DNA of 64,000 bases from Corynebacterium efficiens YS-314. Lineage in GTDB: Bacteria > Actinomycetota > Actinomycetes > Mycobacteriales > Mycobacteriaceae. The notes below the pieces were generated by a model that saw nothing but the letters and a program-made list of their open reading frames with translations, had not been told where the DNA came from and made no database searches. Of this stretch, positions 4,709-45,800 are shown one piece after another. Positions within the stretch are counted from its first letter, which is position 1. Each line of letters starts with the position of its first letter. Where the stretch lies: the NCBI RefSeq assembly GCF_000011305.1, contig NC_004369.1, positions 868,001-932,000 of the forward strand, in the 5' to 3' direction. Position numbers and translations under genes: made by a program.

Positions 4709-5081
4709 GGGGCTGACATGGTTTCGACTACGTTGATTGAGCCAGGGGAAGCGTGCCGGTGAAGGCTGGAGACCACCGTGAGCGTCGCAGCAAACCAATA
4801 AGCGCCGAGAAGACTCAGCGCGACTACGCCCTCGCTGCCTAAGTAGCGACCGCGTGTCTGTCAGCCCGGGGATGTCCCTGCCCCGGATGCTGGCATCGAC
4901 TAAGGGACTTGCTATCCAACCGCGTCAGCGGGGTTGGATGGGACTTCTACCGCTGACTGGGCCCATCATCCGGATGTGTTCGTCCTAGCCGGAGGGCCAA
5001 GCAGAGATCGCTGCACGAACTGCGCACGGAGAAGCCCTGGCAAAGTAGCGTAGGACCCGGGTTCAATTCCCGGCAGCTCCA
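4709..5081 (+). ncRNA. ssrA: Transfer-messenger RNA (SsrA)
   Basis: Rescues stalled ribosomes with SmpB and tags the incomplete protein for proteolysis. The 5' end GGGGCTG (4709-4715) pairs with CAGCTCC (5074-5080) as acceptor stem; the T-arm with TTCAATT is at 5056-5073; the 3' discriminator is 5081. The terminal CCA is not encoded. The 3' part (5060-5082) is the prophage attL core, and the tRNA-like domain is preserved after integration. Length is about 373 nt. Confidence 0.95.
4804..4842 (+). other. tmRNA tag-peptide reading frame
   Basis: Resume codon GCC at 4804 opens AEKTQRDYALAA followed by TAA. The ALAA end is the protease recognition signal. The C. glutamicum tag, as I recall it, is AEKSQRDYALAA, so this tag differs at one residue. 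Confidence 0.92.
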
Positions 5082-5082
5082 C
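5060..5082 (+). other. attL core in tmRNA 3' end
   Basis: A 23-bp segment of the tmRNA T-arm and acceptor stem that recurs exactly at 45414-45436. Left of it is intact tmRNA, right of it prophage DNA. It defines the left prophage end. The 3' end of tmRNA is a classic tyrosine-integrase target. Confidence 0.93.
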
Positions 5083-5091
5083 GAAGCGAAT

Positions 5092-5196: not shown

Positions 5197-5255
5197 TTAG
5201 TCACGAATTAGTCATACCGTCCCGATTAGTCACGTATTAGTCATGAACAGTCACG
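5197..5255 (+). repeat. Arm-type integrase sites, left end
   Basis: Four copies of TTAGTCA(C/T) at 5197, 5208, 5226 and 5237, plus a shorter AGTCACG at 5249. The copy at 5237-5248 (TTAGTCATGAAC) is identical to 45362-45373 at the right end. Position between core and int, and presence at both ends, suggest integrase arm-binding sites. Confidence 0.65.
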
Positions 5256-42664: not shown

Positions 42665-43123
42665 ATGCCGATTGATCACCTCCCCGTGAGGTTACGGTCC
42701 CCAGCTGAAAGGGTCCGCAATGTGATGATGACGGATGCGGGGGTGATGCTCATTCTCGGTGTCACCATGATCATCCGTGGCATCTCGTATTGGTCGCTCG
42801 GTGCGCATGTTCTAGTTAACCCGCTGGACACCAGCCTGCCCAGTGCAATGACGAGCGGGTGGTGGATCAGCGTGGGTGTGGCCCTGGTGGTGGCATCAAA
42901 GTGGCAGGCCACCGCACCCGCCAGGGTGATCCTCATGCTCGGCATCGGCACCCTCGCCGCCTGGGGCAGCTTGTTTCTTTTCGCCCCGCCGGCGGCGTTC
43001 GCACAGCGAGGCATTGTCTATCTCGCGCTGGCCACCGTGATCGTGTGGTCAGTGTGGCGTGGTAGGCGCGGTGAGGTCAGGGTGAGGACGGAGGCAGTCT
43101 ATGGACCCCCTGCAGGCCAGTGA
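42665..43123 (+). CDS. Four-helix membrane protein of lysis cassette
   Basis: 152 aa with about four transmembrane helices (GVMLILGVTMIIRGISYWSL, WWISVGVALVVASKW, VILMLGIGTLAAWGSLFLFA, GIVYLALATVIVWSVW). Starts 4 nt after the holin. It may be a second holin or an antiholin; family not recognised. Confidence 0.65.
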   Translation: MPIDHLPVRLRSPAERVRNVMMTDAGVMLILGVTMIIRGISYWSLGAHVLVNPLDTSLPSAMTSGWWISVGVALVVASKWQATAPARVILMLGIGTLAAWGSLFLFAPPAAFAQRGIVYLALATVIVWSVWRGRRGEVRVRTEAVYGPPAGQ

Positions 43124-43445
43124 TGGGTGGTCGCTTGCTGGCGCCCTGGGGGCGCTTCTGATCACCAGTTACTTCGGGTATCTGGCTGTCAAGGTGAAAT
43201 CCTCATCGGACAAAAAAGACGAGGACGTCAAACCTGTCCTGGAGAAAGTTGAACAAGCCGTCAATCTGCAACCGGCGGTGGATGCGTTGTCAGCGCGAGT
43301 GGTTGCATGTGAGGCTGAGCTCGCTGAATATCGACCAATCGCCAAGTTCAAATACCCGCTCGCGCTCAACACCATCGCAAGTTTCCGACAGGCTCACCCG
43401 TCCTCGACGGTGTTCATTCCTCACCAGATCCAAGAAGATCTCTAA
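43101..43445 (+). CDS. Membrane-anchored lysis-cassette protein
   Basis: 114 aa, one N-terminal transmembrane segment (LAGALGALLITSYFGYLAVK), then a charged helix (DEDVKPVLEKVEQAVNLQPA). The layout fits a spanin-like or lysis accessory protein. Overlaps the previous gene by 23 nt. Confidence 0.6.
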   Translation: MDPLQASDGWSLAGALGALLITSYFGYLAVKVKSSSDKKDEDVKPVLEKVEQAVNLQPAVDALSARVVACEAELAEYRPIAKFKYPLALNTIASFRQAHPSSTVFIPHQIQEDL

Positions 43446-43449
43446 ACCG

Positions 43450-43487
43450 CCCCCACCTGGCCATGTGCCAGGTGGGGGCTTTTTTGC
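43450..43487 (+). terminator. Terminator of lysis cassette (copy 1)
   Basis: 11-bp stem CCCCCACCTGG / CCAGGTGGGGG with CCATGTG loop, then CTTTTTT. A near copy is at 44476-44512, beyond the HEPN-motif gene. Confidence 0.88.
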
Positions 43488-43488
43488 T

Positions 43489-43791
43489 TTCCTTATGTGG
43501 GGTGCTTGTGGTTGATCACGGCGCTGGCAGAACCGGGGATGGTCTCGCAGGCTAGGGTGGATCATCCTCATCTGCTCCCGGTGGCTGGCAAAGTTGCTAC
43601 CATTCAGGGTGAAGTGCCGTAGAACAGTGAACTGCGTCTGGATCCCGATTCAGTCAGGAGCTGCAGAAGGGCACATAAGTGACTTCTACGTTGTTGGACG
43701 CAGCCCACCGCCCGGCGAGAGCTAACAAAGCACTACTAGGAGGATCGTTGAACCAACCAGCCCCAATTGTTCTCAGGAGGTCATTTCACCG
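43489..43791 (+). other. Leader of HEPN-motif gene (303 bp, no gene seen)
   Basis: No convincing ORF. It must contain the promoter of the next gene, since a strong terminator precedes it. AGGAGG lies about 11 nt before the ATG at 43792. No tRNA-like or repeat structure was seen. Confidence 0.5.
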
Positions 43792-44328
43792 ATGGAATTA
43801 ATGCTGATGCGCATGTTCCAGCGACAAGTCGCTGATCAGTGCAAGGTCACGTTGCACGGAGTTAGTCTCCTGAACCATGGCCTTCAGAACGATAACGACG
43901 ATACGGTCTGGATCGGGGTGCAGGTGCTCCTTACCGGGGCTGCGAATACTTCCAAGGCCTTGTGGGGAGGGGGACGGGAAAGGGATAAAATTTCGGCGGA
44001 GCGTGAGCCGTTGCGGCGCTCGTTGCAGGTGGAGGATTCTTCCCCCCTTAGCGACGTGAGGATGCGGAACAACTTCGAGCACTACGATGAACGACTCGAC
44101 AAGTGGTGGCAAGAATCGCCTCAGCGCCTTTACTTGGACCGATTATTAGGGCCTCCCGATAGCGTAAGCGGATTTAATGACATCGATCGTTTTCGTGTCT
44201 ATGACCCAACTACCCACGATATCGTGTTCTGGAGTGAACGATTTAACGTACAGGCGATCGCCACAGCCGTGAGTGAATTGCTACCGCGTGCCGAAGCTGA
44301 AATGAATAAGCCGCACTGGGAAACCTGA
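43792..44328 (+). CDS. Right-end accessory protein with HEPN-like motif
   Basis: 178 aa, helical. Arg92-Asn-Asn-Phe-Glu-His97 (RMRNNFEHYDER) matches the HEPN RNase signature R-x4-6-H with a polar residue after Arg, in a helix. HEPN proteins are frequent RNase effectors in phage defence and toxin systems. The gene stands alone between two near-identical terminators at the prophage right end, the usual place of morons expressed in lysogens. The C-terminal half (DIDRFRVYDPTTHDIVFWSE) is beta-rich. No partner antitoxin is visible. Defence function is inference. Confidence 0.6.
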   Translation: MELMLMRMFQRQVADQCKVTLHGVSLLNHGLQNDNDDTVWIGVQVLLTGAANTSKALWGGGRERDKISAEREPLRRSLQVEDSSPLSDVRMRNNFEHYDERLDKWWQESPQRLYLDRLLGPPDSVSGFNDIDRFRVYDPTTHDIVFWSERFNVQAIATAVSELLPRAEAEMNKPHWET

Positions 44329-44475
44329 CAGCTTACGTCCGTCCCACAGCTGTCAGTAACCCAAACGCAGCCTTGTGACATCCCGACCATAAAGTAACAC
44401 TTGTCGATTAGTAATAAGTTCGTTTTCAAGCCTGTTTCCCGACATGATGCCCCTTCTGTTACAGAGGAAATCTAA

Positions 44476-44512
44476 GCCCCCACCTGGCCATCGCGCCGGG
44501 TGGGGGCATTTT
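44476..44512 (+). terminator. Terminator after HEPN-motif gene (copy 2)
   Basis: GCCCCCACCTGG pairs with CCGGGTGGGGGC, loop CCATCGCG, then ATTTTCC. The 5' arm and loop start are the same as in copy 1 at 43450. Confidence 0.85.
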
Positions 44513-44556
44513 CCGTTCCCAGGGAACCTTTCGGCTCCGGGTGAAGTCCCAAATGA

Positions 44557-44575
44557 GTTCAATTCCCGGCAGCTC
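44557..44575 (+). repeat. Third partial copy of att core
   Basis: 19 bases identical to positions 2-20 of the 23-bp core (GTTCAATTCCCGGCAGCTC), after which the sequence diverges (TAAG). It sits 857 bp inside attR and suggests an older or tandem integration at tmRNA. Confidence 0.8.
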
Positions 44576-44843: not shown

Positions 44844-45287
44844 CTAATGGTCGGTGAGCATTTCGTATGCATTCACGAAGATGTACTTGAAAGCTGCATC
44901 TCGCGGACTGTTTCTAAATGTGAATTGGTCGCGCCGACCTTGTGTTCTAGATGCGCCCACTTCAGCCCATATACTTCCATCTTCGAGAACGAGAGCTGCG
45001 ATGCTATGAGGGTCCTCGCCTTGTGCCGAAATTTGAGCTGCCCAGTTTGCAAGATGAGTAGGATCACCGTTGAACTCTGCTTCTTCTAGGATGCTCTGGG
45101 CGCGCATCTTAAGGGGATCAGGTGTTTGAGATTTCAATCTGCGCGGACGCTGATCTCCGCAGATTGTGCAGGCTTCGTCGCCTGTCCCAGATCCTAGATG
45201 GTGCTCTCGAACATAGTGATGCTTATGTTCTGGAGACCCGTTTTCCTTGTGGGCTTGTTCAAGCTTGAGACTGTCTTCAAATTGCAT
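44844..45287 (-). CDS. Orphan hypothetical protein at prophage right end
   Basis: 147 aa, in the interval between the partial core at 44557 and attR. An N-terminal His/Cys cluster (HKHHYVREHHLGSGTGDEAC then TICGDQRPRR) could bind zinc; the rest is mixed (SIAALVLEDGSIWAEVGASR). Base composition is lower in GC than the structural genes. Not recognised. It could belong to a separate small element or be a moron of this phage. Confidence 0.6.
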   Translation of the reverse strand: MQFEDSLKLEQAHKENGSPEHKHHYVREHHLGSGTGDEACTICGDQRPRRLKSQTPDPLKMRAQSILEEAEFNGDPTHLANWAAQISAQGEDPHSIAALVLEDGSIWAEVGASRTQGRRDQFTFRNSPRDAAFKYIFVNAYEMLTDH

Positions 45288-45349: not shown

Positions 45350-45373
45350 TTAAGTCATAAATTAGTCATGAAC
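45350..45373 (+). repeat. Arm-type integrase sites, right end
   Basis: TTAAGTCAT (45350-45358) and TTAGTCATGAAC (45362-45373); the second is identical to 5237-5248. They lie about 40 bp inside attR. Confidence 0.6.
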
Positions 45374-45413: not shown

Positions 45414-45436
45414 GGTTCAATTCCCGGCAGCTCCAC
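45414..45436 (+). other. attR core
   Basis: Exact 23-bp copy of 5060-5082. To its right the original tmRNA flank continues with CCGAAGAGGG, so the uninterrupted tmRNA end can be rebuilt by joining 5082 to 45437. Confidence 0.92.
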
Positions 45437-45447
45437 CGAAGAGGGAG

Positions 45448-45480
45448 ACCCCAGACCATCACTGGTCTGGGGTTTTCCTC
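45448..45480 (+). terminator. Native ssrA terminator, displaced by prophage
   Basis: ACCCCAGACCA pairs with TGGTCTGGGGT, 4-nt loop, then TTTTCCTC. It lies directly after attR, 40 kb from the tmRNA it used to end. It may also serve the minus-strand deaminase gene that stops at 45483. Confidence 0.85.
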
Positions 45481-45482
45481 TT

Positions 45483-45800
45483 TTACACTGCCGGTGTCAC
45501 CCAGTAGTCGAGGTGAACGTCCTTGAGCCTCTTCCACGTCGGGGTCGTGGGATCGTCCGGGTGTGCCACGGCGACCATGAGGCCCGGACCGTGGATCGCG
45601 AGACGCTCCCGGCAGACCCCGCAGGGGTTGAGAACCAGGTACCGGCCGTCAGGGTGCCGAGCCAGGCAGATTGACGCCACGAGGCGCTGGCCCATGCGGT
45701 AGGCGGCGCAGAAAGGCTCGGTCTCATGGCACAACTCCACACCGGCGTTGAGGACCTCGGGGGCGGTGCCGACCAGCACGGTGTCGTCGGCAAGCAGCAT
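45483..45800 (-). CDS. Cytidine deaminase-like protein, start unclear
   Basis: Zinc deaminase of the cytidine/blasticidin deaminase group. Active-site CHE (ELCHETEP) supplies the first Cys ligand and catalytic Glu; PCGVC supplies the other two ligands. The only in-frame ATG near the domain is at 45800 (MLLADDTV), but family-like sequence (LFDECQASIESGFPAAGGF) continues upstream to about 45867, where no start codon exists until an ATG at 46013 inside the divergent gene. Either the protein is shorter than usual or its 5' end has been damaged. Confidence 0.65.
   Translation of the reverse strand: MLLADDTVLVGTAPEVLNAGVELCHETEPFCAAYRMGQRLVASICLARHPDGRYLVLNPCGVCRERLAIHGPGLMVAVAHPDDPTTPTWKRLKDVHLDYWVTPAV

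Follow-up and report, generated by a model that had tools for sequence, protein, structure and literature searches.

What does a solitary 178-aa gene with an R-x4-H motif do at the right end of a prophage? The question is raised by a stretch of 64,000 nucleotides of Corynebacterium efficiens YS-314, hereafter called the window, which lies on one contig in a 3.2-Mb genome. A first-pass annotation, made from the nucleotide sequence without database searches, had proposed that the gene is a candidate defence gene of the HEPN type, inserted as a cassette. The ORF and its RNNFEH motif were borne out by the ORF list and the translation. Here the gene is placed in its prophage, its relatives are compared, and the possible functions are weighed.

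Position of the gene at the right prophage end

Homologues at 24–58% identity indicate that the ORF is a real gene and not a chance reading frame. It is unbroken over the length of the family, keeps the core residues and has a good ribosome-binding site (Table 1). A scan for the sigma-70 consensus, which actinobacterial promoters may escape, found no promoter-like site upstream. The gene lies right behind the late genes and on the same strand.

Table 1. Features of the window at the two prophage ends and around the 178-aa gene
Feature	Position	Strand	Basis
attL, 3' end of tmRNA gene	5060..5086		tmRNA at 4709-5082
Late gene, 152 aa, in the module by which related prophage ends were found	42665..43123	+	homologues in L086, L087, L088, L089
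Last late gene, 114 aa (holin region)	43101..43445	+	homologues in four genomes
Terminator-like hairpin T1, after late genes	43449..43479	+	13-pair stem, then TTTTTT
Decayed IS630-type transposase fragment	43560..43752	-	DNA and protein matches
AGGAGG, likely ribosome-binding site	43775..43780	+	read from sequence, 11 nt before ATG
178-aa solo HEPN-like gene	43792..44328	+	ORF and translation, homologues, model pLDDT 94.4
R92-N-N-F-E-H97 motif codons	44065..44082	+	R and H in 10/10 members not picked by motif, window included
Terminator-like hairpin T2, after 178-aa gene	44476..44507	+	13-pair stem, then ATTTTCC
Internal att core copy, 19 nt	44557..44575		100% to tmRNA end
147-aa ORF, convergent with 178-aa gene, between internal att copy and attR	44844..45287	-	ORF list
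Possible integrase arm-type repeat	45353..45373		18/21 nt as at 5228-5248, weak (E 0.095)
attR, right prophage end	45414..45441		longest match to tmRNA end: 28 nt, 96%

The att core occurs three times in the window, once at the left prophage end and twice at the right. The attR is better placed at 45414 because this copy has the longest att match, because the sequence from 45414 to 45486 is 81% identical to the right prophage junction in the related genome G509, and because the possible arm-type repeat, which weakly resembles the repeats beside the integrase, sits just ahead of it. The copy at 44557 was rejected as attR since it matches over 19 nt only, compared with 28 nt at 45414. With attR at 45414 one further ORF follows the 178-aa gene, which is thus probably the penultimate prophage ORF and not the last. 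Searches with this 147-aa ORF found nothing in phages, and in 241 other genomes of the genus they returned a single weak match (E 8.9e-4). The two att copies suggest that the right end is composite and was built by more than one recombination.

The gene lies between two terminator-like hairpins, T1 and T2, in a region that has 6 such sites compared with 2.6 ± 1.7 expected from shuffled sequences. The hairpins had been described as near-identical. This is true of the left arm, a 16-nt string (GCCCCCACCTGGCCAT) that occurs in exact form only twice in the 3.2-Mb genome, each time here, but over 44 nt T1 and T2 are 73% identical. T2 shares 87% identity across 45 nt with the terminator that follows the homologous late gene in the related genome G490. 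The proposal that the gene and one terminator were inserted as a cassette in one step was abandoned, as the likeness of T2 to the G490 terminator defines no single event. The arrangement of T1 and T2, together with this likeness, fits recombination between related phage ends.

The 303 bp ahead of the gene had been taken for its own leader. About two thirds of this interval proved to be a relic of an IS630-type transposase gene, and the reading of the 303 bp as a regulatory leader was rejected. At the DNA level the relic shows 70% identity over 149 nt (E 8e-13). At the protein level the match (combined E 3e-11) is split into two pieces that lie in two frames, with a stop codon in frame. Relatives are annotated as IS630 family transposases. 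In an Actinomycetota MAG a transposase-like ORF (L003 6798-7754) lies immediately ahead of a relative of the 178-aa gene, a second mobile-element neighbour.

Homologues of the 152-aa and 114-aa late genes stand side by side in four other genomes of the genus, and the 114-aa protein is present in 5 of 242 genomes, its own included. Prophage ends were located in the G509 and G539 comparison, and in G534 and G490 the spot directly after the late genes was taken as the cargo site. In G509 an att sequence follows the last late gene at about 80 bp. In G539 a sequence resembling a tRNA 3' end lies within about 190 bp of the last late gene, a site at which ARAGORN reports no whole tRNA. Neither end holds cargo. 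In G534 the gene after the hairpin encodes a 252-aa protein on the opposite strand with the motif R-N-R-A-S-H. This protein matches the PADLOC model of PD-T4-5 (E 2e-11) and, weakly and under the family cut-off, Pfam Abi_2 (E 0.0015). The two ORFs that follow it are reminiscent of a Panacea-type toxin-antitoxin pair; the PD-T4-5-like gene and these ORFs lie at L087 4881-7059. G490 has a 110-aa ORF of unknown kind at the corresponding spot.

Of the four related right ends, two are empty, one is occupied by a PD-T4-5-like gene and one by the ORF of unknown kind. This result shows that the spot holds optional cargo. By position and by comparison with these relatives, the 178-aa gene is itself optional cargo (a moron) between the late genes and attR of a tmRNA-integrated prophage. 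The right end had been called a hot spot for defence genes. As a spot for optional cargo it stands, but one recognizable defence gene was found in the four relatives.

Distribution, conservation and neighbours of the family

Relatives were found by tblastn in three phage records, and a search via one relative added two further Gordonia phages (four records). Eight plasmid records contained relatives at E≤1, four of them representing one Alteromonas plasmid type. Two species genomes also contain relatives, and a search of 396 genomes of the phylum found them in 13, among them the genome from which the window comes. Viral contigs yielded 0 with the single protein, 6 with A1, 34 with A4 and 4 with A5, counts that include repeats. 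Of 61 genomes of relatives, only its own has the gene. By these searches the 178-aa protein is a member of a divergent, widespread and unnamed family of phages, plasmids and chromosomes. The family is not described in the open-access literature searched, in which the string EHFDER does not occur. The family is real and under-described.

The window protein was compared with nine relatives at a mean pairwise identity of 23%. Only L74, R92, H97 and D99 are invariant. The nine relatives were taken from tblastn or profile searches and not from motif patterns, although such searches still score the motif. Retention of R and H in 10/10 sequences while nearly all else changes is a pattern typical of an active site. 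R-x4-H is the most conserved part of this widespread family. The invariance of R and H in A6 was set aside as evidence because most A6 contigs were found by that motif.

Motif conservation breaks down in one lineage. In a tree of 42 proteins the ten Rubrobacter-type members form one clade (support 100/99) in which R is lost in 10/10 and H in 7/10. The other family members tested keep both residues, so that the expected conservation holds outside this clade and fails within it. L029, a duplicate of L007, was excluded from the tree and from the conservation count, and the tree also excludes further near-duplicates and short members. Loss of R, and in seven members of H too, implies that the scaffold remains useful when the active site is gone. 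The sequences look as if the scaffold had been taken over for another role. One member of the clade is on a named Rubrobacter plasmid and the other nine are in genomes of one family. A genome of the same family (G446) has a motif-bearing copy with an internal stop (TGA; L020). Within the clade (L022-L031, L007) 48 invariant columns are common to the ten members. In Mycolicibacterium palauense a relative (L002 8010-8381) looks broken and ends after about 124 aa.

In the Gordonia phages Ohgeesy and Madeline the relative lies within the run of genes from immunity repressor to integrase. In Samba it points against the tail genes and has one co-directional neighbour. The layout in ZiggyZoo is similar, with an additional small ORF ahead of the relative, and in BIM BV-113 the relative stands alone, against its flanking genes and near tail genes. 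On a Rhodococcus plasmid a distant member adjoins AbiD (PADLOC E 3.4e-64) near a RelE/ParE-type toxin, and on the Alteromonas plasmid the relative is near an LA2681-type HEPN gene and a polymorphic toxin. The annotated neighbours on the Rubrobacter and Thiodictyon plasmids are ordinary. By genomic context the 178-aa gene may have a defence role.

Neighbouring ORFs of at least 45 aa within 5 kb were compared at E≤1e-6 in 41 loci, which cover the neighbours of a Tritonibacter relative. No group of neighbours recurred in more than 4 of the 41 loci, and none of the groups listed includes the window. The absence of an adjacent partner, claimed from the window by itself, is thus borne out in the sense that no neighbour is widely recurrent. 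A toxin-antitoxin pair with a neighbour was rejected for the same reason.

Relatives are slightly closer to integrases than random positions are. The distance was at most 1 kb in 2 of 23 records (random mean 1.4). It was at most 4 kb in 8 of 23 (random mean 4.9, p 0.08) and at most 7 kb in 13 of 23 (random mean 7.9, p 0.015), values to be read with the records not being independent. Nine of 32 records were left out of this test, eight because they had no match and G677 because its match was below the cut-off.

Predicted fold and profile searches

Structure prediction from 32 sequences gave a helical bundle with high confidence (pLDDT 94.4, pTM 0.88), in agreement with a first model from 9 sequences (pLDDT 88.9). 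A helical hairpin (3-32 and 36-58) is followed by a helical insert at 61-77 (61-70, 72-77). The next helix, 90-96, breaks at H97 and resumes at 98-108, which places the motif at a predicted helix end. A beta-rich insert (115-152) precedes the last helix (153-171).

HEPN domains are described in PMC3710099 as four-helix up-down bundles in which an insert separates helices 2 and 3 and the motif closes helix 3. Both the insert and the position of the motif are found in the predicted model, and R92-x4-H97 is an instance of the HEPN motif Rx4-6H. A polar N, D or H after the motif R is described as well (PMC3710099). This residue is N, D or H in 10/10 sequences, the window protein and the nine relatives not picked by motif. 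The same review reports an acidic residue in helix 2 that is present in many HEPN families and not required (PMC3710099); no conserved one is evident in the alignment of the family. The model departs from the plain HEPN layout chiefly in the beta-rich insert that lies between the motif helix and the last helix.

Structural alignment joined the model end to end with 3jrt, an integron-cassette HEPN protein (Z 7.2, rmsd 3.5, 125 residues), and over 110 residues with the HEPN-MNT protein 8xeh_B (Z 5.9). FliS and designed bundles scored above both (Z 8.0-8.1). With unrelated bundles at Z up to 8.1, the fold search agrees with HEPN without deciding for it. Foldseek searches of the PDB with both models returned no match at E≤0.001. 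Among viral structures one match was obtained at E≤0.001, the family member of Gordonia phage Madeline. The four-helix fold is predicted, yet HEPN does not stand out from other bundles in the search of the PDB. HEPN kinship of the family is well supported by the motif and its placement in the predicted model, and is not established by the fold.

A profile search against HEPN families had been proposed as a check. The window protein matches 0 families in Pfam, PHROGs and PADLOC at E≤10. Twenty members (A2) were compared with Pfam, NCBIfam, PHROGs and PADLOC, and 32 members (A6) with Pfam, PADLOC and PHROGs. Scattered matches were obtained, nearly all to a single member. The best was PDC-M07B (E 0.0032), followed by Pfam, NCBIfam and PADLOC matches at 0.0063-0.0082 that include Cas13-ApeA (0.0068), and phrog_13826 matched two members (E 0.14). 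These matches were taken as chance. Of two PDB profile searches, one gave three unrelated weak matches and the other zero. PADLOC 2023 misses Tha-1 too, so the absence of a PADLOC match is no argument against defence.

Proposed function and comparison with known systems

The reading we prefer, to which we give about an even chance, is that the gene encodes a solo HEPN-type RNase, made in the lysogen as prophage cargo, that aborts infections by other phages and is Tha-like without being Tha. The product would be a small stand-alone HEPN-type protein, most likely a metal-independent RNase that probably acts as a dimer. In the lysogen it would stay inactive, to be released on infection by another phage. 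The released RNase would then cut RNA, and the infection would abort. By its position only, the convergent 147-aa ORF is a candidate for sparing the prophage on induction. Here we infer HEPN membership by fold, RNase activity, dimerization, trigger and defence role. With Tha, a HEPN RNase carried by a prophage is already known to act in defence (PMC11087260).

The same sequences could describe a whole family, a reading we hold more tentatively and at somewhat below an even chance. The family would be an undescribed single-gene anti-phage system of about 180-aa HEPN proteins of the R[ND]xxEH[FY]DER type with a beta-rich insert after the motif, carried as lysogen-expressed cargo of temperate phages and plasmids in many hosts and adopted, with the active site lost, in one Rubrobacter-type lineage. 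If so, sensor and effector must share one small domain. A compact one-protein RNase defence would then exist in many temperate phages while being unmodelled in the libraries used. Its small size makes the protein a good case for studying what keeps a solo HEPN inactive before infection. The Rubrobacter-type lineage raises the question of why a scaffold is kept when its active site is dropped.

An active HEPN RNase need not serve defence. It might be a stand-alone toxin or a regulator that keeps the prophage or tunes host RNA in lysogeny, to which the evidence from motif and model applies equally, and plasmid relatives with ordinary neighbours suit it. We consider this unlikely, given that no antitoxin-like neighbour recurs in the 41 loci and that defence-type genes occur near some relatives and at the G534 spot. 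Less likely again is that the product is HEPN-like without catalytic activity and binds RNA or protein, for example as a regulator, the motif being structural. The Rubrobacter-type clade, which keeps the fold region with R lost in every member and H in most, shows what such a protein could look like, but outside that clade both residues are kept in 10/10 sequences while nearly all else varies.

Two further readings are very improbable. The gene could be decaying cargo with no present function, as the IS relic directly upstream, the lack of a promoter-like site in the sigma-70 scan, the repeated att cores at the right end and the shortened or stop-bearing relatives (L002, L020) would allow. The ORF is intact over the family length, keeps its core residues and is preceded by a good ribosome-binding site, which speaks against decay. 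Least probable of all is a phage accessory that is expressed together with the late genes and acts on the lysis side or in counter-defence. Its place right behind the late genes on their strand, and the relatives near tail genes in Samba, ZiggyZoo and BIM BV-113, speak for such a role. Hairpin T1, however, parts the gene from the late genes, those same three relatives oppose the late genes that flank them, and the relatives in Ohgeesy and Madeline sit among lysogeny genes.

The preferred reading, a solo HEPN-type RNase with a defence role, was compared with four known systems. As in the HEPN-MNT (type VII) systems, the window protein is small and of probable HEPN type, and its model aligns with 8xeh_B, but HEPN-MNT needs an adjacent nucleotidyltransferase antitoxin and no neighbour recurs here. 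The integron-cassette protein 3jrt, listed in PMC3710099, is likewise a small stand-alone HEPN on a mobile element and aligns end to end. It differs in having no sequence match and a Z score not above that of unrelated bundles.

PD-T4-5, described in PMC9519451 as a distant relative of AbiF/D, belongs with AbiD and AbiF (Abi_2) among HEPN-type defence proteins with R-x4-H, one of which occupies the G534 spot. The window protein matches none of their Pfam or PADLOC models at E≤10 and was not filed with them. No profile similarity was seen between the window protein and the PD-T4-5-like protein of G534, in a weak single comparison.

Tha is a prophage-encoded HEPN RNase of Staphylococcus, an anti-phage protein activated by phage tail proteins, and its motif R265NSIMH270 (R-[N]-x3-H) is required for protection (PMC11087260). 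At 301 aa, Tha-1 includes an additional N-terminal portion, and an antisense gene, ith, encodes its inhibitor (PMC11087260). The window protein has 178 aa and no extra N-terminal domain, no ith-like gene was found beside it, and it was not filed under Tha because length and architecture differ. Alignment with one Tha sequence by hhalign gave a probability of 0.3%, a weak test as a single-sequence comparison; hhalign also missed the Abi_2-like G534 protein, so this comparison cannot detect distant HEPN kinship. The likeness to Tha lies in a prophage-borne gene, a motif of the form R-[N]-x3-H and a single effector protein.
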